IMG/VR virus record: IMGVR_UViG_3300030109_000617
Location: 1-20,933 of that record
DNA: 20,933 nucleotides
DNA from: a virus
Strand: one strand, 5' to 3'
The position numbers were made by a program, and so were the translations under genes. The notes beneath the pieces are model-generated. The model ran no database searches. It saw nothing but the letters and a program-made list of their open reading frames with translations, and had not been told where the DNA came from. Shown here in pieces: positions 4,736-19,703 of the stretch; position 1 is the stretch's first letter; every line of letters starts with the position of its first letter.

Positions 4736-6415
4736 ATGGCTTTAGATGATCACATTCCGCCTGCTAGTAGCGGAGAGCCTTATCGTTATGAGGAATTAAA
4801 AGATTTTACTGGTGGTTTGAACCTTAGATCGGATCAAACGTCTTTGGGTCCGTCAGAATCTCCTGCGATGTTAAACGTTGAGGTTGATCCACGGGGCGGT
4901 ATTGCTCGCCGTGACGCTATTGATGCGTTAAACGCTTCTGCTTTGGGTGAAATTCTTAAAATTTCTTCCCATCATGAAACTACTGGCGATAATCAGATTC
5001 TTGTCGCTGCTAAGGATAGTTCTAATACTGGTTTATATTATGGCACTGGTGGCAATTTTACTCGTATAAATACTAGCGCTAGTGGTTCTGGTGTTGCTTT
5101 GGCTGGTCATACTTTACCTAGTTTTGTTACGTTTAATGATGCAACTTTTATTTCTAATGGAGCATTTTTTGAAACTAATAAATCTGCTGTAAAGTGGACT
5201 GGTGCTAATAGTGCTTCTGTATTAACAGCAACTATTGATGGTAGCGCAGGTCAATTTCCTTTGGCTCGTTCATCATGCACTTGGGGAGAACGTGTTTGGG
5301 TAGCGAATACTACAGAAAGCAGCACAAACTATCCTAATCGTATTCGTTGGTCTGAAATAGATAAAGGTGACGAATGGGAAGCAGATTCTTATATAGATAT
5401 TGATATTGGGGAACATGGCGACCACATAACCGCTATTGTTCCTAATGGTGATCGTTTACTTGTGTTTAAAGAAAACGCTGTTTACGGCGTTTATGGGTTT
5501 GATTCCGATTCTTTTCAAGTAATTAACTTGACTAGAATTGCAGGAAGCATAGATGACTGCACTCCTGTTTCTTCTCCTATGGGTGTTTTCTTTTGGTACG
5601 CTCAAGAAGGCGTGTACAAGTTAGGTACAGAGTCTTTAGAGTACATGTTTCATCCTATTAAACCAGCGGTAACAAGAAGTCAGTTAACGTTTACTGGTGT
5701 TCCTTCTTTAATGTGGCATGACAATCGTTTGTGGGTTTCTGTTGATTATCAATCAGGCGACAATATACAAAATTCTAATCAAGTAAATCGTCGTAACGTT
5801 TTTGTATTTGATCCTTCTTTAGGTCAGGGCGGTAGTTGGACTCGTTTTGATATTAATGCCCGTAATTTGTTTGCTTATAAACCGCCGGGTGGAACTTTTT
5901 TAGGTTTATGTGCTACTTCTGATGTGGCTAGTGGAGTAACGACTGCTGCTTTTACTCGTGTGTGTAAAGTAAACATTGACGCTGATGTAGACGATTATAC
6001 TGGTGCTCCTTCTAATACTCAGATTCATTCGTTTTATCAGACTCGCTGGTTGGAAGGTAATCGCCCCACGTTTAATAAACGGTGGGGCAAAACACGTACG
6101 GTGTTGTTGGCTGATAACACTGTTGCTATTCAAATGAAAATTTATAAAGATTATAATACTGGTAGTGAGGCAACTACTTTGTCGCAGCAGATTACTGGTG
6201 AGGCTTCTTCTGCTGCTTGGGATTCTGCTACGTGGGATACCGATACTTGGGTTTCTTTTGGTGATTCTCAAATTTACAAGTTCTTTAAATGGCCTTCTGC
6301 TGGGACAGCAAAGGCTATATGTATAAGGTTTAATGTTGAACCGACCACGAATAACAACGGTAAGTGGGGTTGTACTTCTGTGGTTGGGATGTATCGGACT
6401 AGGAGAATAAGGTAA
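4736..6415 (+). CDS. Tail nozzle / stabilisation protein, P22 gp10-like
   Basis: 559 residues. Near the N-terminus is a FTGGLNLRSDQTSLGPSESP motif followed by ML-NVEVDPRGGIARRDAI. This 'GGLN.R.....L...E...L.N.....RGG...R.G' pattern is the hallmark of the P22 gp10-like stabilisation/hub family and related nozzle proteins of short-tailed phages. The rest is beta-rich with repeated W-rich blades (RVWVANTTE, NRIRWSEIDKGDEWE, NRLWVSVDYQ), fitting a propeller-like fold. It would extend the adaptor and hold the fibres and tail tip. GGGAG at 4725-4729 and a gap of three bases to the adaptor stop support ATG 4736. The stop overlaps the next ATG by one base. An 11-bp hairpin lies inside the gene at 6063-6088. 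Confidence 0.7.
   Translation: MALDDHIPPASSGEPYRYEELKDFTGGLNLRSDQTSLGPSESPAMLNVEVDPRGGIARRDAIDALNASALGEILKISSHHETTGDNQILVAAKDSSNTGLYYGTGGNFTRINTSASGSGVALAGHTLPSFVTFNDATFISNGAFFETNKSAVKWTGANSASVLTATIDGSAGQFPLARSSCTWGERVWVANTTESSTNYPNRIRWSEIDKGDEWEADSYIDIDIGEHGDHITAIVPNGDRLLVFKENAVYGVYGFDSDSFQVINLTRIAGSIDDCTPVSSPMGVFFWYAQEGVYKLGTESLEYMFHPIKPAVTRSQLTFTGVPSLMWHDNRLWVSVDYQSGDNIQNSNQVNRRNVFVFDPSLGQGGSWTRFDINARNLFAYKPPGGTFLGLCATSDVASGVTTAAFTRVCKVNIDADVDDYTGAPSNTQIHSFYQTRWLEGNRPTFNKRWGKTRTVLLADNTVAIQMKIYKDYNTGSEATTLSQQITGEASSAAWDSATWDTDTWVSFGDSQIYKFFKWPSAGTAKAICIRFNVEPTTNNNGKWGCTSVVGMYRTRRIR
6063..6088 (+). other. Intragenic long hairpin in the nozzle-like gene
   Basis: GCCCCAC (6063-6069) pairs with GTGGGGC (6082-6088), and GTTT (6070-6073) with AAAC (6077-6080). 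This gives an 11-bp stem with one bulged G (6081) and an AAT loop. It encodes NRPTFNKRWG. No terminator T-tract follows (AAAACA). Role unknown. Confidence 0.5.
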
Positions 6416-7314
6416 TGGCAGATTTAAGTACGGGGTCGGCGTTTGTGGCTGGTACCACGATTGTGGCTTCGGCTATGAATACTCGGTTTACTAGTGTGGA
6501 GACTTGGGCTAAGGGTACTCCTGATTTAAGTACTTCTGGGTCTATGACTACGATTAAAGGTACTTTGAATGTTGATGAGGCGGTTTCGTTTGATTCTTCT
6601 TTAACGATGACTGGTGCTTTAACTGTTGGGGTTAACGATACTGGCCATAATGTAACGTTTTATGGTGCGACTGATGGGGCGTACATGAAGTACGATCAAG
6701 CCGCTGATAGATTAATTGTTTTAGGTGGTGAAGTAGGTATTGGTACTACTTCTCCTGCTAAGCCACTTGATATTGTTACAGCAAGCGGTGATGCTTATAT
6801 CAAACAAAGCGATGGCACGACAACTACTGTTTTTGGTCCTGCTGGAAACTCCTCTGCTTTATGGGGTACTACCTCTGATCACGACATTTATTTTATTGTA
6901 AACAATACAGAAAAATTAAGATTAAAAGCCGATGGTACTTTAAACAGTTCTACAACTTATACCACTACGACTAGTACAGGCGCAAACATGGTTGTTGATT
7001 CTTCACCTCAAGGAGATTTCAAACGTTCTACTTCTTCCATAAGGTTTAAAACAGATGTTGAAACAATGGATGACGACTCTGCTGATGCGGTGTTAAATCT
7101 TCGTCCTGTTTCTTACAAGTCTTTGTGTTCTGGCGATGATAAAGATAGATCTCATTGGGGTTTTATTGCTGAGGAAGTTGTTGAAATTGATTCTCGTTTA
7201 GTGCATTTTGGTCCTAACGGAGAAGCAGATGGTGTTCAATATGACCGTGTTATACCTGCTTTAGTAAATGTTATTAAGCGTCAAGAAGCACGTATAGCAG
7301 CGCTGGAGGCATAA
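6415..7314 (+). CDS. Tail fibre with C-terminal S74 self-cleaving chaperone domain
   Basis: 299 residues. The N-terminal 60 residues (SGSAFVAGTTIVASAMNTRF) resemble fibre attachment regions of aquatic phages. Residues 67-180 hold GALTVGVNDTGHNVTFYG and GEVGIGTTSPAKPLDIV beta modules shared with the larger fibre downstream. Residues about 200-299 form a peptidase S74 / intramolecular chaperone domain: SSIRFKTDVETM, LNLRPVSYKS, HWGFIAEEVVEID, VQYDRVIPALVNVIKRQEAR. Ser207 and Lys212 have the S-X4-K spacing of the catalytic dyad of this family. By analogy with phage endosialidase and neck appendage proteins, the domain would help the fibre trimerise and then cut itself off just before Ser207. The AGGAG/AAGG upstream and TAATG overlap support ATG 6415. 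Host receptor unknown. Confidence 0.85.
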   Translation: MADLSTGSAFVAGTTIVASAMNTRFTSVETWAKGTPDLSTSGSMTTIKGTLNVDEAVSFDSSLTMTGALTVGVNDTGHNVTFYGATDGAYMKYDQAADRLIVLGGEVGIGTTSPAKPLDIVTASGDAYIKQSDGTTTTVFGPAGNSSALWGTTSDHDIYFIVNNTEKLRLKADGTLNSSTTYTTTTSTGANMVVDSSPQGDFKRSTSSIRFKTDVETMDDDSADAVLNLRPVSYKSLCSGDDKDRSHWGFIAEEVVEIDSRLVHFGPNGEADGVQYDRVIPALVNVIKRQEARIAALEA

Positions 7315-7544
7315 TGGGTGCCGAAATCATCGGCGCAGTCGGGCTTATTGCAGCCGCAACTGTAACTGGCATCTTGGCGTTGCTGGGTAAACGATTTCGG
7401 GACGAAAACAGTGAGCAACACGCTCAAAATTTAGACATGTTGGAAATGATTATAGATAATGTTGGAGAAGTAAAAGATGATGTGCGCGAAGTCAGAGACT
7501 CGCAAAACCGGCATCTTGAGTGGCACTTGGAGGAGGATAAATGA
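7314..7544 (+). CDS. Small one-helix membrane protein, holin candidate
   Basis: 76 residues. A single hydrophobic segment (about 4-25, IIGAVGLIAAATVTGILALL) is followed by KRFRDE and then a highly charged, predicted coiled-coil part ending RHLEWHLEEDK. This plan (N-terminal membrane helix, charged cytoplasmic tail with heptads VGEVKDDVREVRD) is common to small holin-like or DUF2746-like proteins of actinobacterial phages; the family assignment is by eye only. It could equally be a membrane-anchored accessory of tail function. GGAGG at 7305-7309 and TAATG overlap with the fibre gene support the start. Its stop overlaps the next start (ATGA). Finding it between two fibre genes, 12 kb from the endolysin, is unusual for a holin. 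Confidence 0.75.
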   Translation: MGAEIIGAVGLIAAATVTGILALLGKRFRDENSEQHAQNLDMLEMIIDNVGEVKDDVREVRDSQNRHLEWHLEEDK

Positions 7545-10282
7545 GTATCCCAAGATTTCAGGTACAAAAAAACCTTACACCACCCGTTACTATCGCGATA
7601 TCGGGAAGTCCCGATTACGTCGGGACATACGGGTCTGGCACAACATACGCCACTGGTGATGTAGTCACATACAACAACTCATCATATGTTGCTAGACAAG
7701 CAACAACTGGTAACACTCCGGGTGAAACCGCTTACTGGCAAACTCTTGCTTCTCAAGGAAATACCGGGGCAACCGGCCCTGCCGGTGCATCGGGTTCGTC
7801 AGGCACCGACGGTGTAATTAATACTCTTACGGCTGGTACTAATTTAAACGGTGGAGGCTCTGCGTCCACCGTGACAGTTAATCTTGATTCAGATATTTCT
7901 TTAACCTCTGCTACGTTTTCTGCTGCTAGTCCTCTTATTTTTGAAGGGGCTACACCAGATGCTCATGAAACAACTATTGCGATTACTGATCCAACTGGAG
8001 ATCGTACAGTTACAATTCCTGACGGATCGGGAACGGTTGCTTATTTAGATAGCAGCATCACTGGTAATGCAGCGACTGCTACTACAGCAACTACAGCAAC
8101 CAATGTTACGGCTACTGCTAATAACTCTGCGGATGAAACGGTTTATTTAACTTTTGTTGACGGCGCTACTGGAAGCCAAGGCATTGAAACAGACACAGGT
8201 TTAAATTACAACCCAAACAGCGGCGTGCTAACTACTACTTCAGTTACTGGCAATCTTACAGGCAATGTGACGGGCAATACTTCTGGAACGTCTGGATCTA
8301 CTACTGGTAATGCGGCCACGGCTACAGCGTTGGCAACTGCAAGAAATATTGGTGGAGTAAGTTTTGACGGTACAGGCAATATTGATTTGCCGGGAGTAAA
8401 TACTGCCGGTAATCAAGCAACTTCTGGCAATGCAGCAACTGCGACAGAAGCCACTAACGTTACGGCGACAGCAAACAATTCTGCTAACGAAACAGTTTAT
8501 TTGACGTTTGTAGATGGGGCTACGGGAACTCAAGGTGTAGAAACTGATACTGGGTTAAATTACAATCCAAGCACCGGTGTGTTAACGACTACTTCTGTTA
8601 CAGGTAACTTGACAGGAAATGTGACTGGCAACGTTACAGGCAATGTTTCAGGTTCTGCCGGTTCTGCTACGGGTAATGCTGCTACTGCGACTGCGTTGCA
8701 GACTGCACGAAACATTAATGGTGTTTCGTTTGACGGCACAGGAAATGTTACAGTTACGGCTGCTGCTGGAACTTTAACTGGCACAGAGTTGAAGTCTACG
8801 GTAGTGACTTCTTCGTTAACAAGTGTGGGTACTCTTAGCGCTCTTACTGTTTCTGGTACGGTTACAATAGATTCGGTTGGGATTACAGCCGTTCAAACTT
8901 CTGGAGAATCATTTTCTGATAATGACACTTCGTTTATGACGAGTGCCGCTATTGATGACAGGATTAATGCGGCTAGTGGTGCTTCTCCCGGTGGGTCTAA
9001 TACTCAGGTTCAGTACAACGGTTCTGGTTCTTTTGCTGGTTCTTCAAGTTTTACTTTTGCTTCTGGTTCAGGTATTGTTACTGCTACTGGGTTTGCTGGA
9101 GCGTTAACTGGAAATGTGACTGGTAATGTTTCTGGTTCTTCTGGTTCTTGTACAGGAAATTCGGCTACTGCTACGGAGGCTACTAATGTTACAGCGACTG
9201 CAAACAACAGCGCAGACGAGACTGTGTACCTTACTTTCGTTGACGGTGCTACAGGCACTCAAGGAATTGAGACAGATACTGGTCTTAGTTATAATCCGAA
9301 TTCGGGGATATTAACCACTACTTCGGTTACTGGTAATTTAACAGGGAACGTTACTGGTAACGTTTCTGGTTCGGCTGGGTCGGCAACTGGCAATGCCGCT
9401 ACCGCTACAGCGCTTGCTTCTGCAAGAAACATCGGAGGTGTTTCTTTTGATGGAACTGGAAACATAGATCTTCCGGGAGTTAACGCTGCTGGTAATCAAA
9501 ATACAAGCGGCAATGCTGCAACAGCAACTGCATTGGCTACGGCTAGAGCAATTAATGGTGTTGACTTTGATGGTACTGGCGCTATTACGGTAACAGCGGC
9601 TGCTGGTACTTTGTCTGGCGGTACTTTGGCTAGTGGTGTTACTGCTTCTTCTTTAACAAGTGTCGGAACTTTAGGTGGTTTAAGTATTACTGGCGCATTA
9701 ACAGTCGGAGTTGACGATACTGGACATGACGTTAAATTCTTTGGTGCTGCTGCTGGTTCTCATCTTTTATGGGATGAGTCAGAAAACAGGTTAGATGTAG
9801 TTGCATCATCTGGGGCTGCTTATTTTAGATCGTTGAATGGTACGGCTACTACTTATATAGGTTCTGATAGTTCTAATACAGGACTGTTCGGAACAAGTTC
9901 AGCGCATAGAGTTAGGTTTATAACTAACGACAGCGAAAGAATGACTATTTTGAGTGGTGGCAATGTTGGTATTGGAAAATCTGATCCTGCTACTGCGTTA
10001 GATGTTGTTGGAACAATAGATTCAACGGTAAACCCTCCTCCTATTGTAGAAACATTTGCGTCTCAAAGCATTTCAGCATCAGGAACAACTGTAACATTTA
10101 CTTCTAGTCGTTTTTCCAGTGCACCTAATGTAATGGTTACACAGGCAAATAGTGGCGGTGGCGGAAGTAAAGTTCCAAACGTAGATAATATTACTGCTTC
10201 GTCTTGCAGAGTTTTCTTGCTTAATACTTCAAATGGTTTTGTAGCCGGCGACGCTTCGCTTCTAGTGACCTTGGAGGTTTAG
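7541..10282 (+). CDS. Large repeat-rich tail fibre with carbohydrate-binding-like modules
   Basis: 913 residues. Residues 28-70 (TYATGDVVTYNNSSYVAR ... GNTPGETAYWQTLA) match the short CBM5/12-like chitin-binding pattern. Residues 73-91 are six collagen-like GXY triplets. Residues 95-700 are a low-complexity Thr/Gly/Asn/Ala shaft built of two recurring modules. One is NVTATANNSA ... LTTTSVTGNLTGN (three copies). The other is TARxIxGVxFDGTG (four copies), joined by TGNVTGNVSG stretches. Residues 718 onward share a module with the preceding S74 fibre. The end (about 845-913, VTFTSSRFSSAPNVMVTQAN) resembles an H-type lectin beta-sandwich, by inference. There is no S74 domain. The protein would be a trimeric receptor-binding or side fibre. 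The start is fixed by the ATGA overlap and GGAGGA just upstream. Confidence 0.82.
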   Translation: MSIPRFQVQKNLTPPVTIAISGSPDYVGTYGSGTTYATGDVVTYNNSSYVARQATTGNTPGETAYWQTLASQGNTGATGPAGASGSSGTDGVINTLTAGTNLNGGGSASTVTVNLDSDISLTSATFSAASPLIFEGATPDAHETTIAITDPTGDRTVTIPDGSGTVAYLDSSITGNAATATTATTATNVTATANNSADETVYLTFVDGATGSQGIETDTGLNYNPNSGVLTTTSVTGNLTGNVTGNTSGTSGSTTGNAATATALATARNIGGVSFDGTGNIDLPGVNTAGNQATSGNAATATEATNVTATANNSANETVYLTFVDGATGTQGVETDTGLNYNPSTGVLTTTSVTGNLTGNVTGNVTGNVSGSAGSATGNAATATALQTARNINGVSFDGTGNVTVTAAAGTLTGTELKSTVVTSSLTSVGTLSALTVSGTVTIDSVGITAVQTSGESFSDNDTSFMTSAAIDDRINAASGASPGGSNTQVQYNGSGSFAGSSSFTFASGSGIVTATGFAGALTGNVTGNVSGSSGSCTGNSATATEATNVTATANNSADETVYLTFVDGATGTQGIETDTGLSYNPNSGILTTTSVTGNLTGNVTGNVSGSAGSATGNAATATALASARNIGGVSFDGTGNIDLPGVNAAGNQNTSGNAATATALATARAINGVDFDGTGAITVTAAAGTLSGGTLASGVTASSLTSVGTLGGLSITGALTVGVDDTGHDVKFFGAAAGSHLLWDESENRLDVVASSGAAYFRSLNGTATTYIGSDSSNTGLFGTSSAHRVRFITNDSERMTILSGGNVGIGKSDPATALDVVGTIDSTVNPPPIVETFASQSISASGTTVTFTSSRFSSAPNVMVTQANSGGGGSKVPNVDNITASSCRVFLLNTSNGFVAGDASLLVTLEV
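7600..7626 (+). promoter_or_regulatory. Two alternative hairpins sharing one arm, start of fibre gene
   Basis: ATCGGG (7600-7605) pairs perfectly with CCCGAT (7610-7615) across an AAGT loop. GTCCCGA (7608-7614) pairs perfectly with TCGGGAC (7620-7626) across TTACG. The central CCCGA arm can take part in only one at a time. The element starts 59 bases into the fibre reading frame. Whether it regulates anything is inference. Confidence 0.4.
8102..8278 (+). repeat. Fibre repeat, copy 1
   Basis: Residues 188-246 of the large fibre, beginning NVTATANNSADETVYLTFVD and ending TGNLTGNVTGN. Compared by hand with copies 2 and 3, the protein is almost unchanged while most codons differ (see findings). 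Confidence 0.9.
8456..8632 (+). repeat. Fibre repeat, copy 2
   Basis: Residues 306-364 of the large fibre. Against copy 1, by hand count over 59 codons, 5 residues differ, 31 codons are synonymous changes and 23 are identical. Confidence 0.9.
9185..9361 (+). repeat. Fibre repeat, copy 3
   Basis: Residues 549-607 of the large fibre. Against copy 1, by hand count over 59 codons, 3 residues differ, 38 codons are synonymous changes and 18 are identical. Confidence 0.9.
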
Positions 10283-13076: not shown

Positions 13077-16000
13077 ATGGCTTTAAGTAGAGAAGATTAC
13101 TTAAACGCTGTAAATAGTTTAAATAGTCAACAGCAAAACAAATCTCCAAATTTTGCATCTCAAATAACTCCTGACGTTCTTGCTGGTATGCAAGAACGTT
13201 TAAGCCCTTGGACTACAGGCAACACGGATGCTGGCGGTGTCGGCGGTTTTGTAATGAAAACGTTAAGCATGCTTGACATGCCTCGTTCCGCTATTTCTTC
13301 TACTATTCAGGAGACTGTGGACCTTTTCCAAGGTGAAGGGTTTTCTGGTTCTGACTGGTTGCAGCAAACCCGTCAACATCACGGGTTTGGTGACATTATC
13401 GCTGACATGGGTATTGACGCTGGTTTAGGCGGTTGGGGTAACCGCATTATAGGTTTTGTTGGGGATGTCGCTACCGATCCTTTGATGTGGCTGGGTGGCA
13501 TGAATGTTTACAGCAGGGCTAGAGGTGCGAGAGGTCTTATAGACGACGTAACGCCTCGTATCGGGGAGTTACGTAAGGCTGGTCAGGCTACCCCTGAGTT
13601 GCGTGCTTTAGAGGACGCTGTGAAGGCTGCAAGTAAAGGCAAGAGTGTTTCTGCTGCTCGTAACGTGTTGATAAGACAGCACGGTGATGTTGGCGCGCAA
13701 CTTGTTAAAGATTTAGGTATTGACACTGGGTTGAAGTTTCGTGTGCCGGGTACTGGACCTGTGTTGGGTCGTATGTCTCGTTCAACTCCGTTTGTGGGTT
13801 TGTCTTCTGCTAGAAGGGCAGGTCAGGTTCCTGCGTATACTCAAAGAAGGTTAGCGGAGTCTTTGGGCGATGAGTCTTGGGAGAATTTGATTAGAACGGC
13901 TGCCCGTAAAGAAGCGTTTGCTGAGGGAGTGAGTCCTGCTGTTCAACAGGTTGCTCGCAGGGCTGCTTACATGCCTGTTGAATTTTCTGTACCTGTTTTG
14001 GGTGGGGTTTTTGGAACGATTCAGGCGTTGCCGGGTTCTTTAGTTGGCCGTGCCGCTGTGAGTCGTTTGGGTCAGGGTATGGGTAAAACGTTTGGCACTC
14101 CTCAAGATAATATGGCCGCTAAACTTGCCCGTTCCGACAAGGTAGAAGAAGTTATTTTGTCACATATTATGCGTAAAGGTAATATGCGTGGCGACACAAT
14201 GGCTGCTCGTTGGCAGGCTGTCAGTGGTGACGCGAATATTAGATTCGCTAACCACATGAATCAAGATTTTGGTTTAACAGATGACACGCTTTTGGGGAGG
14301 ATTATATTAGAGGTTTCTGATGAAGAAGCGGCGTTGATTGATGCCGGTACTTTGTCTTCTGCTCGTACCGCTAACTTAGAACAAAAATATGGGATGTCTG
14401 TGCAACGGATTGCTCAGATTCGTTCAACGTGGAAAGAAATGGTTGGCGATCCGTTAACACAGTTTTTGTTAAGAGATGATGTTTATACATCTACTGGCAG
14501 GGTTTCTAAACAATTTGAGGAAATGCTTTTAATGGAGGGCGGTTATTCTCCGCATACTTTATTTCAAGACGAGGTTGGCGGTTTCCGATCTGCCCGTGAG
14601 TTGTTGGAAAATATTTGGGGGAATGTTCCTGACAGGTTACCTGCTTGGGTTAAAGGGATTTTAGAACCTGATGTTCCTTACGCTAAGGTTAATACTGCGG
14701 CTGAGGCGAGGGAACGTATGTCTTCTCGCCATTTGCAGGAACGTTCTCTTAAACCTACTTATGTGGACTCTGATGGAGTTCTCCAGTTGGGAACTCAATT
14801 AGATATTCCTTACAAAAGTGATCCTACTCGTTCTGTAAGATTTAAGTTGCGTAGAAAAACGATGCAGCCCGGTGTAGACGAAACAAGGTTTTCTAAATAC
14901 ATGGTTTGGGATGAAGCCGACCCTAGGTTTAACATGTCTACAACGGAGCAGATTGATTGGGCGTTCAGGGAGGCTGGTTGGATCGGCCCGAATGAATCTG
15001 TTTATACGCGAGGTTACGCTAAAAGGCAAAGCGGTTACGCTTCTTCTTTGGGTAGAGATATTCGTTTGGCTGTCAATGAACGGCATTTAGCAGATAACGG
15101 TATTTTGTTTAACGCTGAAACTTTTGACGAGTATTTTGCGGTTATGAAACAGTACGACGAGTACGCTGAAAAGGTTGCTGCTCAGGTAGCGAAGTTAGAT
15201 GCTAAAGCGCAGTCAAAAATGGAAGAAACGGTTACGCGCGCTACTGTTGAATCCGGTTTAGGGCATACTGTTAGAAACACGAAGAGGTGGAAAGCGAAGG
15301 CTTCTGCTGATCGTGAAGCGGCTGCGTTAGGTATAGATGAAATTTTAGAACCTTTGGAAGAGATTCTTGGCGGCACATCTGCGAGAATGTTTATAACTGA
15401 TTTGATTAAAACTGGTCAAATTTCCGAAGACGGTATCAGAGTGTTGTTGCGTGAAACTGGTCAGACTTTAGCCGAAAGCAATATTCTTGTTAACGAATTA
15501 AATGCTATACGTAAAGAATTAGATTCTTTACTAGTTAAGACAGGGATGTATCCTGAAGGAAGCGTTATCGTCAAGGAGGCTGACGGTTCTTTTTCTATTC
15601 GTCATGGTTTAGAAGATCCTAATGCTGCTGATGCTGCTAAAGAATTATTGTATGGGCCGGGTTTAAATCAAATTGATGCTGTCCGAGAGTTGGTTCCTAT
15701 TGTTGAACGTCTTCAAAAATTTAGCGCTCGTTCCGATGTAATCAATAATGGTTTAGAAAAATTAGGTGCTGTTATTGACGATTTGGAAACCTTAGCCCCT
15801 GACGGCAAAGGTTTCCTTACTATTCCAACGGCAGGCATTGCTGACAACATGAATTTGGTTCAGGAGATGTTGGAAGACATCGGCGTTAATATGAAAAAGT
15901 TGATGCTGGCTGATGAAACTGTTGAAGGAATGGAAGATCTGCAACGTTTTTATCGTGGAGACTACAGCGTTTATTATCCGGGTCAGATGTATCGGTCTTC

Positions 16001-19000
16001 TGGGGAATTGTTTGATTCTTTCTCTACGAGATTGAAGGGTCGCAGGCAGAAAACTTTAGGTAATTGGTTTCAAGATGGTGGGCATAATCTTCCTCAGTCT
16101 CGCAGGGAGTTGAATACTGTTAACAAGTTTGAGGGTCATCCTCGTGCTGCTGAGTTGAACAATATTGTTGATGAGTATTTGAAACTTGTTAAAGAGTTCC
16201 CAGAGGCTAGGTTGTTGATTACTGCCGATTTTACTGAAGGTGCCGTTATGGGGCGTTTGGGTCCAGATGTTTATACTGCAACGCCAAGTGCTAGACCTGT
16301 TGAAGTGACGTGGAATATAAACGAAACGATTCTGGCTGGAAAATCAAATCTTCCTGTTGAGGCTCAGAAACGTGCTGTAGATATTGCGGAGCGTTGGATG
16401 AACAATACTGTTTTGTTGCATGCTGACATGTCTGGGAGGACTTTAACTGCAACAGTTCCTGTTGAAATTAAAGCATTAGAAGTTTTACGCAAGTTAGAAT
16501 CTCCTGTGTTAAGTGAACGGTATGCGATTCCGTTAAGAGATCGCACTCCTATTGATCCTAATTTATTTGACGATCAAGTAATAGAAGTTTCTGGAGAAGG
16601 TGTGCGTCAAGTGGCTTCAACCAGAGGCGCGCTTCCTGAACCACGATCTTCTCTTTTCAGGGGAGAACCTACGCCGACAATAGATGAAATATTTTTTTCA
16701 CCTGTTAAAGAAACGTATGGTACGCCTCCGAAGCCAAATCCTCAGTATCTTAGAAACACACGGCTTGAAAGCCTTCCTTTGACGGGTAATTTAAGAAGAT
16801 ACTTTGAATTTGTTGAACAACGTTTAACAAATCTAAAACCTGATGATGCTGAAAAAGTTTGGGATGAGGTTGTTATGCCTTTATTGTTTCCTGCGGTCCG
16901 CAGAGCAGAATTTACTGCAAGTGGATTTGAAGGATTGCGTTCTATGGAATTTCTTCGTCTTAGAAGAGCGTGGGAAGAACTATATGGTGTAGGTAGGTAC
17001 GCAGACGGGCAGCCTGCAAGTTATACAGCATCAAAAACTAAAAGAACGAAGAGAACGGAAGAAATTTTAAGCGAATTTCCAAAAGAACCTAATCTTGACG
17101 TGAGGAAAATAAGGCTTCGACTTGAATTAGAAAAAGTATTAAAAGATGTTGACTTCAGAGGTAAAGTTTATACAGCGGTTACAGAAGAAGGTAAAAGAAA
17201 TTATGGCCGTTGGGCGACTTCTGGCCGCGCCGGATTCCGAACAGAGAACGGATTACCTTTATCATCTAACCAATTTATTGATACAGGAGGCACTCAATCT
17301 GTAAGGGTTAGGAGAGAGCCTATAAGCACTTATGGGCAAGACAACATGGTGCCTAATCAGCAAGGCGGTTTAGTGGCACGTGTCACAGGCAAGCACAACA
17401 GAGCGACCTTTCCCCCTGATGTGATCCCTTCTGAGCAGGTTGGCCGAGTTCAAGACATAGGGCCGAAAGTTAACGATCCTAAAGAATGGGTTCCAACTTT
17501 TAAACAGTTGGAAGCAGATGTTAACCACGAATTTTCTTTATCAGTTTTGGGTAAAGACATGTACGCTAGAACTCCTCAACTTTTACAGGATCTTGTAGAA
17601 AAAATAAATGTTTTAAGGAACACAGGTGGAAGAACGGCCGCTTTGCTTGACGAGACTGGGGCGCTTGTAGATCGCGTTACTGTTCGCGCTGTTCCACGTC
17701 AAACTGTAGATTCGTTGTTTACTCCCGAAAAGGCTCCGAATGTTTTGAGATCTTTTCAAGAATCAGTGGTTTCTGAATTAGGTCCGAACCCTAGTTTGGA
17801 TGACATCCATAATTTGTTTAAACGTATAGCGGCAGAGAATATGTCTGGTACGCACATGTTTACTCAAAGCGGAGAATTAACTTACGTCCGCCCTCAAGTA
17901 AAAATGGAAGACGTTATAGAAATAGCAGATCTTGTTAAAGGGTTTGATTTAAAGTTGCCTGCTGCTCGTAAAGCATATCATGGTGTTTTGGATAAAATGT
18001 TGGTGGAGCAAACAGACAGGCTTATAAACCTTCAGCGTAGATACGCTGAGGCTACTGCAAGAGAGCAAAGCCGAACTGCTGCTGTGACTGTTGCTGAACA
18101 AAAATTGTTAGATGCGGAACGGGCGGCTTTACAATCATTAACAAATAAGGAAATGTTGGAAGCAGAACGTTTAATGTCTCTTAACCGTCAGGCTAAAGAA
18201 CACGACGTTTTTGTTTCTGAAACTTTCGGCGGCGGAAAAGGCTTATTTGATGAAGTAGATTTAACTGGCCTTACGACAGAAGATTTCCGAAAACTTTTTG
18301 ATGATGATTCTTTAATGTGGGGTGCTTGGAGAATTGCTGGCGATCAAGAGTTCGCTGATCAAGTGACTTACGCTTTGTTGGCTGTTCAAAAAATGAATGA
18401 CCGAACACAAGTCAACGCATTTTTGAAACAGTTTGACAGAACCCATAACTGGTTAAAGGCTCAGATGGTTGCCACTCCCGGTTTCGTTACTCGTAACATT
18501 ATGGGCGGAATGTTCAACATGTGGACTGAAGACATTCCGTTGAGCGCGACGCTTCGTACCGGCAAGATGATAAAGAAAGCATACCAAGAAGGTCAAGGCG
18601 ACCTTCTTGCTGGTTTAAGGGCGATGGATCAGACTCCAGAGGTGCAGTTCGCTATTCAACTAGTTGACATGGGCGCTCATGGCGGCGGTCAAGCCGCCTC
18701 CATGGTTGAACACAACCTGCGACTAACTCGTAAAATGGAATGGATTTTCGGCACTAAAGATGGTGCCGCTAAAGGCTGGCGTATAAACCTCAACCCGGCA
18801 GATGCTCAGTTTGCTTTATACAGTGGGGTTCGTCACGCTAACACTTACGCTGAGGAAATGTTAAGGCTCGCTACTGGTATACATGCTATGCAGGTAGGCG
18901 GTTCGTTAGACGACGCTGTTGACATGATTTACAGGTTGCATTTCAATTACGGCAATCTTTCTGGCAGGGAAAGCGAGTGGTTTAAACGTTTGTTCCCGTT

Positions 19001-19703
19001 CTACACTTGGTCGCGTAACAATCTGCCTTTACAGATAACGCAGATGGCGAAAAACCCTAAACGATACAACAGGCTGTTAAGTATTAAACGTAATTTAGAG
19101 TATGGCACGGAGGAAGAAGGAACTGTTCCTAGTTATTTTTTAGAACCGTTTGGTTTCCGTATGCCTTTCAGTATCGCAGGAAGCCAAGTTTATTCTGTCC
19201 CTGATTTACCTTTTCAAGATTTGTTAAGGTTTGACCCTACTGGTGTTGGGTTCGTTGACGCAGCCCAACACATCCTTTCTGCTGGTTCACCTATGATCAA
19301 AGTTCCTTTAGAGTATTGGGGTGGCAAACAGTTCTTTAAAGGCATTCCTTACTCTGGCAGGTATCAGCAAGTTCCTGTTGTTTGGGAAAACATTCCGGGT
19401 TTGATGCCTGTTTTGTCTACTATTGGTTGGGCTGAAAAAAACAATAAAGGCGAATGGAAGATGACGGATCAACGTATCGCTGTTATGGACGGCTTAATGC
19501 CTTATATCGGCCGTTTACGTCGTGCTGTTCCTAACGAACGACGTTATCAAGAGCGTGTAGTCCAAACACTTGTATCTACTTTGGGCGGTATGAGTGTGCG
19601 TATTAACACCCCGTATGAGCAGGAAATGCAGCGTATACGTGACATGATTGAACGTGATGAGGCTCTTCAAGACGCTGAAGATATTCGTTTCAGACAGCGC
19701 TGA
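13077..19703 (+). CDS. Giant 2208-residue putative internal/ejection virion protein
   Basis: One uninterrupted frame of 6.6 kb, about a third of the window. Residues 124-141 read IIGFVGDVATDPLMWLGG, a motif seen near the N-terminus of very large virion proteins of aquatic short-tailed phages. Residues about 1641-1705 are a charged coiled coil (LQRRYAEATAREQ, AEQKLLDAERAALQ). Residues 1792-1815 (W1792, P1801-G-F, R1806-N1807, NIMGGMFNMW) and 1973-1985 (FPFYTWSRNNLPLQ) match C-terminal motifs of large polyvalent/MuF-associated phage proteins. I see no convincing transglycosylase, protease or polymerase motif. There is no clear ribosome site; the start lies two bases after the preceding stop, suggesting re-initiation. 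The position is like T7 gp16, the channel-forming ejection protein, so a similar role is the best guess. A very large tail or capsid-interior protein is the alternative. Confidence 0.85.
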   Translation: MALSREDYLNAVNSLNSQQQNKSPNFASQITPDVLAGMQERLSPWTTGNTDAGGVGGFVMKTLSMLDMPRSAISSTIQETVDLFQGEGFSGSDWLQQTRQHHGFGDIIADMGIDAGLGGWGNRIIGFVGDVATDPLMWLGGMNVYSRARGARGLIDDVTPRIGELRKAGQATPELRALEDAVKAASKGKSVSAARNVLIRQHGDVGAQLVKDLGIDTGLKFRVPGTGPVLGRMSRSTPFVGLSSARRAGQVPAYTQRRLAESLGDESWENLIRTAARKEAFAEGVSPAVQQVARRAAYMPVEFSVPVLGGVFGTIQALPGSLVGRAAVSRLGQGMGKTFGTPQDNMAAKLARSDKVEEVILSHIMRKGNMRGDTMAARWQAVSGDANIRFANHMNQDFGLTDDTLLGRIILEVSDEEAALIDAGTLSSARTANLEQKYGMSVQRIAQIRSTWKEMVGDPLTQFLLRDDVYTSTGRVSKQFEEMLLMEGGYSPHTLFQDEVGGFRSARELLENIWGNVPDRLPAWVKGILEPDVPYAKVNTAAEARERMSSRHLQERSLKPTYVDSDGVLQLGTQLDIPYKSDPTRSVRFKLRRKTMQPGVDETRFSKYMVWDEADPRFNMSTTEQIDWAFREAGWIGPNESVYTRGYAKRQSGYASSLGRDIRLAVNERHLADNGILFNAETFDEYFAVMKQYDEYAEKVAAQVAKLDAKAQSKMEETVTRATVESGLGHTVRNTKRWKAKASADREAAALGIDEILEPLEEILGGTSARMFITDLIKTGQISEDGIRVLLRETGQTLAESNILVNELNAIRKELDSLLVKTGMYPEGSVIVKEADGSFSIRHGLEDPNAADAAKELLYGPGLNQIDAVRELVPIVERLQKFSARSDVINNGLEKLGAVIDDLETLAPDGKGFLTIPTAGIADNMNLVQEMLEDIGVNMKKLMLADETVEGMEDLQRFYRGDYSVYYPGQMYRSSGELFDSFSTRLKGRRQKTLGNWFQDGGHNLPQSRRELNTVNKFEGHPRAAELNNIVDEYLKLVKEFPEARLLITADFTEGAVMGRLGPDVYTATPSARPVEVTWNINETILAGKSNLPVEAQKRAVDIAERWMNNTVLLHADMSGRTLTATVPVEIKALEVLRKLESPVLSERYAIPLRDRTPIDPNLFDDQVIEVSGEGVRQVASTRGALPEPRSSLFRGEPTPTIDEIFFSPVKETYGTPPKPNPQYLRNTRLESLPLTGNLRRYFEFVEQRLTNLKPDDAEKVWDEVVMPLLFPAVRRAEFTASGFEGLRSMEFLRLRRAWEELYGVGRYADGQPASYTASKTKRTKRTEEILSEFPKEPNLDVRKIRLRLELEKVLKDVDFRGKVYTAVTEEGKRNYGRWATSGRAGFRTENGLPLSSNQFIDTGGTQSVRVRREPISTYGQDNMVPNQQGGLVARVTGKHNRATFPPDVIPSEQVGRVQDIGPKVNDPKEWVPTFKQLEADVNHEFSLSVLGKDMYARTPQLLQDLVEKINVLRNTGGRTAALLDETGALVDRVTVRAVPRQTVDSLFTPEKAPNVLRSFQESVVSELGPNPSLDDIHNLFKRIAAENMSGTHMFTQSGELTYVRPQVKMEDVIEIADLVKGFDLKLPAARKAYHGVLDKMLVEQTDRLINLQRRYAEATAREQSRTAAVTVAEQKLLDAERAALQSLTNKEMLEAERLMSLNRQAKEHDVFVSETFGGGKGLFDEVDLTGLTTEDFRKLFDDDSLMWGAWRIAGDQEFADQVTYALLAVQKMNDRTQVNAFLKQFDRTHNWLKAQMVATPGFVTRNIMGGMFNMWTEDIPLSATLRTGKMIKKAYQEGQGDLLAGLRAMDQTPEVQFAIQLVDMGAHGGGQAASMVEHNLRLTRKMEWIFGTKDGAAKGWRINLNPADAQFALYSGVRHANTYAEEMLRLATGIHAMQVGGSLDDAVDMIYRLHFNYGNLSGRESEWFKRLFPFYTWSRNNLPLQITQMAKNPKRYNRLLSIKRNLEYGTEEEGTVPSYFLEPFGFRMPFSIAGSQVYSVPDLPFQDLLRFDPTGVGFVDAAQHILSAGSPMIKVPLEYWGGKQFFKGIPYSGRYQQVPVVWENIPGLMPVLSTIGWAEKNNKGEWKMTDQRIAVMDGLMPYIGRLRRAVPNERRYQERVVQTLVSTLGGMSVRINTPYEQEMQRIRDMIERDEALQDAEDIRFRQR
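18678..18704 (+). other. Intragenic hairpin in the giant gene
   Basis: CATGG (18678-18682) pairs with CCATG (18700-18704), and GGCGG (18684-18688) with CCGCC (18694-18698). The stem is 10 bp with one C/T mismatch and a TCAAG loop. It is GC-rich in an otherwise AT-leaning gene and encodes HGGGQAAS. Role unknown. Confidence 0.4.

Follow-up and report, generated by a model that had tools for sequence, protein, structure and literature searches.

The repeats of polyubiquitin are the subject of a debate on whether repeated coding units evolve by birth-and-death or in concert (PMC10457151, in the sections used here; Nei et al., 2000, as cited there). For repeats within proteins in general, Persi, Wolf and Koonin (2016; PMC5120217) reported, in the part of their study relied on here, that evolution between repeats is accelerated relative to evolution between orthologues. 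The variability of marine phage tail fibers has been described by read recruitment under the heading of metaviromic islands (PMC3909814, likewise used in part). Here we analyze a tail fiber gene of the virus record IMGVR_UViG_3300030109_000617, whose entire sequence of 20,933 bases is referred to as the window. Three modules of 59 codons in this gene encode nearly the same protein with largely different codons. This scrambling is very likely explained by ancient modules that are maintained by strong purifying selection and that undergo birth-and-death and the exchange of whole units at short linkers. No special selection for scrambled DNA has to be assumed, because saturation and purifying selection together yield the observed codon counts.

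The repeats were noticed in a first-pass annotation of the window, which placed them correctly: all three lie in frame within one open reading frame (ORF) of 913 amino acids (Table 1). Its hand counts proved exact, both for copies 1 and 2 (23 identical, 31 synonymous, and 5 replaced codons) and for copies 1 and 3 (18, 38, and 3, respectively); copies 2 and 3, a pair missing from that annotation, have 18 identical, 35 synonymous, and 6 replaced codons. DNA identities of copies 1/2, 1/3, and 2/3 are 77, 72, and 72%, and identical stretches reach at most 11, 8, and 8 nt. The proteins are 90–95% identical over 59 residues, which agrees with the description of nearly the same protein and, judged by inspection, is far beyond chance. 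Codon swaps across codon boxes had been listed for Leu, Ser, Thr, and Gly. Between copies 1 and 3 they do occur for Leu (four) and Ser (two), which fits a great age of the copies, whereas Thr and Gly have one box each and their changes stay inside it.

Two readings had been offered for this pattern, old copies under purifying selection or selection for DNA divergence as such, along with the proposal to compute dN/dS and to compare codon usage. Between the window copies dS is saturated, being undefined in the NG86 estimate and 16–25 by maximum likelihood (ML), with an ML dN of 0.04–0.065. Independent drawing from the codon usage of the fiber predicts 22.0, 22.9, and 21.4 identical codons for copies 1/2, 1/3, and 2/3, to be compared with 23, 18, and 18 observed (z = +0.29, −1.35, and −0.97), and the expectation from the codon usage of the other 13 genes is nearly the same. 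Codon sharing in the window is thus not below that of independent drawing. Permuting the codons of the same residue inside each copy (58 columns) led to a similar picture, with 23, 17, and 18 identical codons seen and 22.1, 20.7, and 17.6 expected. The codon differences are no more numerous than chance allows if codons are chosen independently, and since codon sharing resembles independent drawing, the silent sites are saturated, not avoided. The window therefore combines saturated silent sites with a conserved protein, as birth-and-death evolution predicts.

Relatives of the module were collected with one module query, which gave 505 matching stretches among viral contigs (79 loci kept), and with three more queries, resulting in 293 loci in addition to the window; all relatives counted are viral contigs from a metagenome-based collection. 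The module is common to 126 genome groups in this set. A scan of bacterial and archaeal genome contigs returned a single relative among 391 pattern matches, in a metagenome-assembled genome, and the module pool consequently appears to be mainly viral. The viruses that carry it are probably marine, judging from kin in Pelagibacter, Flavobacterium, and cyanobacterial phages. Among the titles listed in a literature search, none reported this module or codon divergence between phage fiber repeats, which is no proof of absence. One step of the analysis took 152 of 194 module copies; for the comparisons of copies, 512 of 659 were kept (at most 8 gaps and at most one insertion), 301 remained after removal of near-identical between-locus copies, and 205 of these are of the A type. 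Several loci come from one public contig; the main counts were first labeled by ORF within locus and then redone by genome group, where near-identical genomes are merged as well. Regrouping leaves the conclusions unchanged, and the sole p value below 0.05, in the orthologue swap described below, rises to 0.056. Loci L004, L006, and L136 belong to one contig (3300030107_002518 for L004 and L006), both ends of which carry the same fiber stretch. For this reason the contig is probably circular with its fiber gene cut at the ends, and L006 is probably the continuation or a further copy of the L004 gene.

Repeats within genes were located by a sliding self-comparison of ORFs (40-residue windows of 80% identity or more, segments of 35 or more after trimming), which found 775 segment pairs, 369 of them in 116 non-redundant genes. 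The median DNA identity of these 369 pairs is 0.73, 0.76, 0.77, and 0.80 by protein-identity class (n = 4 in the last class), with a maximum of 0.93. Their codon sharing is 0.47–0.52 by class vs. 0.40–0.44 in shuffled copies (e.g., 0.489 vs. 0.444). Per gene, the z score of codon sharing is below −1.64 in 6 and above +1.64 in 47 of the 116 genes, a score that treats overlapping segments as independent and thereby inflates extreme values in both directions. Among the A-type copies, DNA identity is 0.740 within genes (94 pairs) and 0.688 between genes (20,816 pairs), or 0.745 (128 pairs) vs. 0.688 by genome group. Codon sharing of these copies is 0.499 within and 0.426 between genes, and from this excess it follows that some genes hold recent module copies. 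In the subtype of the window (28 copies in 17 ORFs), codon sharing is 0.375 within and 0.395 between genes (permutation p = 0.18), and 0.392 vs. 0.394 by genome group (p = 0.47). Copies in one gene of this subtype are thus not closer to each other in DNA than to copies in other genes, contrary to what concerted evolution would predict.

Copy 3 is 88% identical in DNA to its counterpart in L006, 87% to those in L010 and L014 (which are identical there), and 85% to the third copy of L005 (L005:4237), but just 71–72% to copies 1 and 2 in its own gene. The DNA tree of the subtype (31 rows) joins different genes in its well-supported groups, except for the L016 pair and the near-identical pairs of the window and L003. 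The approximately unbiased (AU) test rejects a single clade for the copies of L004 (p = 1.2e-5), L005 (p = 1.4e-4), L015 (p = 8e-5), and the window (p = 0.033). For the window test, one L014 row duplicating L010 and two rows of L003 were set aside; with an identical L003 row left outside the tested group p was 0.45, a value spoiled by that row. The copies of one gene therefore do not form one DNA clade in four of the five genes tested, L016 being the exception, again as predicted by birth-and-death. Together, the lineages joining different genes and the rejection of one clade indicate that in most of the genes examined the copies predate the separation of the phages sharing their lineages. The module protein changes slowly. 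With dS saturated, 3 of 59 residues distinguish copies 1 and 3, and copy 3 differs from its counterparts in L005, L006, L010, and L014 at 5–6 of 59 residues at a dS of about 0.3–0.7 (NG86/YN00; 0.53–1.44 by ML). The reading of old copies under purifying selection thus stands as regards saturation, codon sharing at the level of independent drawing, and the same pattern between phages, with one change: rather than products of a simple old local duplication, the copies belong to DNA lineages common to several phages and are gained and lost as units.

Gain and loss of whole units can be observed between close relatives. L003 (contig 3300012952_000306), which can be compared up to the point matching window position 9496, is 97.6% identical to the window fiber to the left of copy 2 and 98.8% to its right, and lacks the block containing copy 2; upstream of the fiber, the two sequences are just 76–83% identical. 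In L010, whose identity to the window before the array is 85–90%, a module of the copy-3 lineage occupies, judging from the residues around it, the position of copy 2, and the positions of copies 1 and 3 hold no such module. As candidates for further events we considered aligned pieces of near relatives that are offset by a block of at least 45 bp. This resulted in 50 raw candidates among 294 sequences, from which 16 were chosen by hand as independent fiber events, the rest being repeats of these or seven candidates outside fibers. All 16 fiber shifts are multiples of three. Six of the seven candidates outside fibers (L160/L162, L168/L178, and L248 with L286 and L289) are out of frame; selection removing out-of-frame events would explain why fibers show in-frame ones only. 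The near relatives L168/L178 and L160/L162 are set apart by a succession of blocks of about 262–266 bp outside the fiber, most of them out of frame. The chosen pairs share 0–25 bases exactly at the joints, and the L090 version of one event shares 72. Seven of the 16 joints lie within 6 residues of a linker vs. 1.1 expected, a comparison whose probability is indicative only, because the linker motif was defined after the joints had been seen and some events share a sequence.

Based on these comparisons, the 59-residue unit is an old and widely shared tail fiber module of uncultured viruses. Strong purifying selection holds its protein, the silent sites have turned over to saturation, and the copies in one gene mostly stem from DNA lineages predating the split between related phages. 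The arrays change by in-frame gain or loss of whole units through crossovers at short shared stretches, often the TGN-AATATA linker. The units would be repeated parts of the fiber shaft, with a sequence fixed by packing or folding. A further and more doubtful step would be to regard fibers as built from a community-wide pool of interchangeable units, with the TGN-AATATA linker as the usual crossover site and with residues that differ between phages tuned in parallel across the copies of one fiber by selection, not by gene conversion. If this were true, fiber length and order could be changed in one step, with each unit staying functional.

Apart from the provisional linker statistic, several observations weigh against birth-and-death with unit exchange. 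Good support is limited to 9 of the 26 inner branches of the module tree, whose backbone is thus weak, and the AU rejection for the window is modest. The copies of L016 (L016:4003 and L016:4204) are sisters in the tree with 87% DNA identity, a genuine recent duplication of the module, and DNA-similar neighbors do exist. Copies in a gene also share some residues beyond common constraint, since the within-gene amino-acid identity of saturated copies exceeds label permutations (0.839 vs. 0.765 in the A type, 0.953 vs. 0.912 in the window subtype, and 0.804 vs. 0.777 within coarse subtypes). Lastly, the window contains 7 exact 12-mer repeat pairs, compared to 25.1 expected from 500 synonymous shuffles of the whole gene (p = 0.022), and such repeats are low in L004, L070, L153, and L242 as well (5 of 116 genes low in all, with 60 shuffles each). 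This deficit would be in line with the proposal of the first-pass annotation that selection actively drives the copies apart at their silent sites, which would prevent recombination that shortens the fiber. One L005 pair, with 16 identical codons vs. 22.7 (p printed as 0.00 of 500 shuffles), points in the same direction, as does the absence of any pair above 0.93 DNA identity among the 369 within-gene segment pairs. So does one of three settings of an orthologue-swap test, in which a copy is compared with its sister copy and with the DNA counterpart of that sister in another phage, the settings differing in how the counterpart is defined (codon difference −0.0175, 41 genes, p = 0.042). All these signals are nominal and uncorrected, however, and the 12-mer deficit could arise if the copies differ in composition. 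Codon sharing of the window pairs matches expectation both with per-copy composition preserved and with the codon usage of the gene. In the remaining two swap settings the difference is −0.0142 (58 genes, p = 0.147) and −0.0137 (58 genes, p = 0.165), and by genome group the values are −0.0113 (p = 0.33), −0.0109 (p = 0.38), and −0.0151 (39 groups, p = 0.056). Over the 116 genes, 12-mer repeats are low in 5 but high in 64, codon sharing is slightly above the shuffled expectation, with far more high than low z scores, and within-gene pairs are on average closer in DNA than between-gene pairs. Moreover, copies of 84–87% DNA identity exist in L016, L047, and L028 (87% in L016 and L047), exact repeats of up to 98 bp are found in genes of this kind, and units are gained and lost even where just 0–25 bp are exactly shared at the joint. 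As a general explanation, codon avoidance was rejected by per-copy shuffles, whole-gene shuffles, label permutation, the orthologue swap, and the usage-based expectation. The family-level data already speak against selection for DNA divergence, which we consider improbable; a weak effect on codon divergence is possible but not supported.

The shared residues could alternatively reflect ongoing gene conversion that homogenizes the protein in each fiber, the silent differences being left over. Gene-specific residues common to the copies of a gene (SA in the window, TA in L005, and ST in four subtype copies each of L004 and L015) and the within-gene amino-acid identities above permutations would fit such concerted evolution. 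Such residues, mostly in different codons, occur in L004, L005, L015, and the window at module columns 7, 8, and 38 (counting from 0) and are common to all or most of the copies within each gene. Conversion copies DNA, yet the Ser-Ala of the window is written TCT GCG, TCT GCT, and AGC GCA, so that gene conversion becomes less likely; two of the three L005 copies do share ACT GCT. Furthermore, the copies in the window, L004, L005, and L015 are not DNA sisters, and among the five genes tested sister copies occur only in L016. Protein homogenization within genes, a strong candidate at first, shrank once DNA lineage was controlled, to an excess of +0.0065 (p = 0.067), or +0.0061 by genome group (p = 0.12). 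Identity within the gene was higher than identity to the nearest other gene in only 2 of 50 cases, a comparison biased against homogenization because the nearest gene is a maximum over many genes. We therefore regard gene conversion as very improbable, and parallel selection on the gene-specific residues as possible. An assembly artifact might also be suspected: identical repeats collapse in short-read assemblies and would leave scrambled arrays visible, all relatives are metagenome-based contigs, and no near-identical repeats (above 0.95) occur among the 775 segment pairs. Such a collapse would account for missing identical copies, but would leave the saturation of the observed copies unexplained. 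Exact repeats of up to 98 bp do get assembled in such genes, and copies 1 and 3 of the window recur in L003, a separate record, with 98.9 and 100% identity, which makes an artifact extremely unlikely.

The assignment of the repeat gene to tail fibers agrees with both its sequence and its location. The 913-residue ORF matches 12 PHROG families, several of which are annotated as tail fiber protein, and is situated among virion structural genes, with matches to portal and major head proteins upstream and to an endolysin downstream. The head protein of the window is 30–37% identical to those of Myxococcus Mx8-like, Ruegeria, and other phages (among the matches listed, 10 of 22 records). The shorter fiber-like ORF in front of the fiber gene and the big fiber have a common stretch of 39% identity (6562–6951). 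The N-terminal region of the fiber (7628–7741) resembles a CBM_5_12 carbohydrate-binding module just under the Pfam cut-off; the Pfam matches of CBM_5_12 and PT-HINT fall below their respective cut-offs. An AlphaFold2 monomer model of one 105-residue unit was poor (pLDDT 61, pTM 0.28), a phmmer search against solved structures gave just four weak matches (best E = 0.005), and a self-BLAST of the fiber returned the trivial match only. A very long ORF of 2208 amino acids spans positions 13077–19703.

Table 1. Positions of the fiber gene, its repeats and linkers, and the adjacent fiber-like ORF in the window.
Feature	Position	Strand	Remarks
Shorter fiber-like ORF with S74 intramolecular chaperone domain	6415..7314	+	Pfam PF13884, E = 1e-11; directly upstream of the big fiber
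Tail fiber gene with repeats	7541..10282	+	Single ORF, 913 aa; best PHROG match phrog_6722, tail fiber protein, E = 4.5e-46
Module copy 1, 59 codons	8102..8278	+	DNA 98.9% identical to L003:3166 over 58 codons
Second repeat type GNAATATALATARNIGGVSFDGTGN	8306..8380	+	Further copies at 8672, 9389, and 9509; pairs with 65–75% DNA identity and 20–24 of 25 residues the same
Linker GNAATAT left of copy 2	8426..8446	+	Left joint of the L003 event
In-frame block of 246 bp holding copy 2	8446..8691	+	Absent from L003; ends in GNAATAT linkers; crossover placeable within 8 identical bases
Module copy 2, 59 codons	8456..8632	+	Absent from the close relative L003; best DNA match elsewhere 81% (L005:3658)
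Linker GNAATAT right of copy 2	8672..8692	+	Right joint of the L003 event
Module copy 3, 59 codons	9185..9361	+	DNA 100% identical to L003:4003; DNA lineage also in L005, L006, L010, and L014

The original observation of scrambled codons is thus correct, and its cause is ordinary in kind but informative in detail. Codon scrambling between near-identical protein repeats can be explained without special selection, and the in-frame gain and loss of units at linkers indicates how fibers may be resized between close relatives, making these arrays a useful natural system for fiber rebuilding. The fiber repeats resemble polyubiquitin, as portrayed in the sections of PMC10457151 used here, in their nearly identical protein, differing silent sites, strong purifying selection on each unit, and variable copy number, and thus add a phage case with many natural variants to that debate. 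However, the DNA lineages of the phage units are shared across phages and the copies in a gene are mostly not sisters, whereas polyubiquitin of Plasmodium is closer within a locus than between species (PMC10457151, same sections). In further contrast to polyubiquitin, the phage units sit in a structural fiber and are joined by linkers. As in the work of Persi, Wolf and Koonin (2016; PMC5120217, in the part relied on), repeats in a protein were compared with orthologues in other genomes. Here the relation is the reverse of the faster divergence of within-protein repeats reported there and runs counter to it, with 3 of 59 differences between copies 1 and 3 vs. 5–6 of 59 to the counterparts, in one family and few comparisons. 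Another parallel is provided by the metaviromic islands (PMC3909814, as far as used here), where tail fibers of uncultured marine phages likewise have repeat stretches and a high turnover between close relatives. The fiber repeats described there are without sequence similarity, whereas the present module is common to 126 genome groups.

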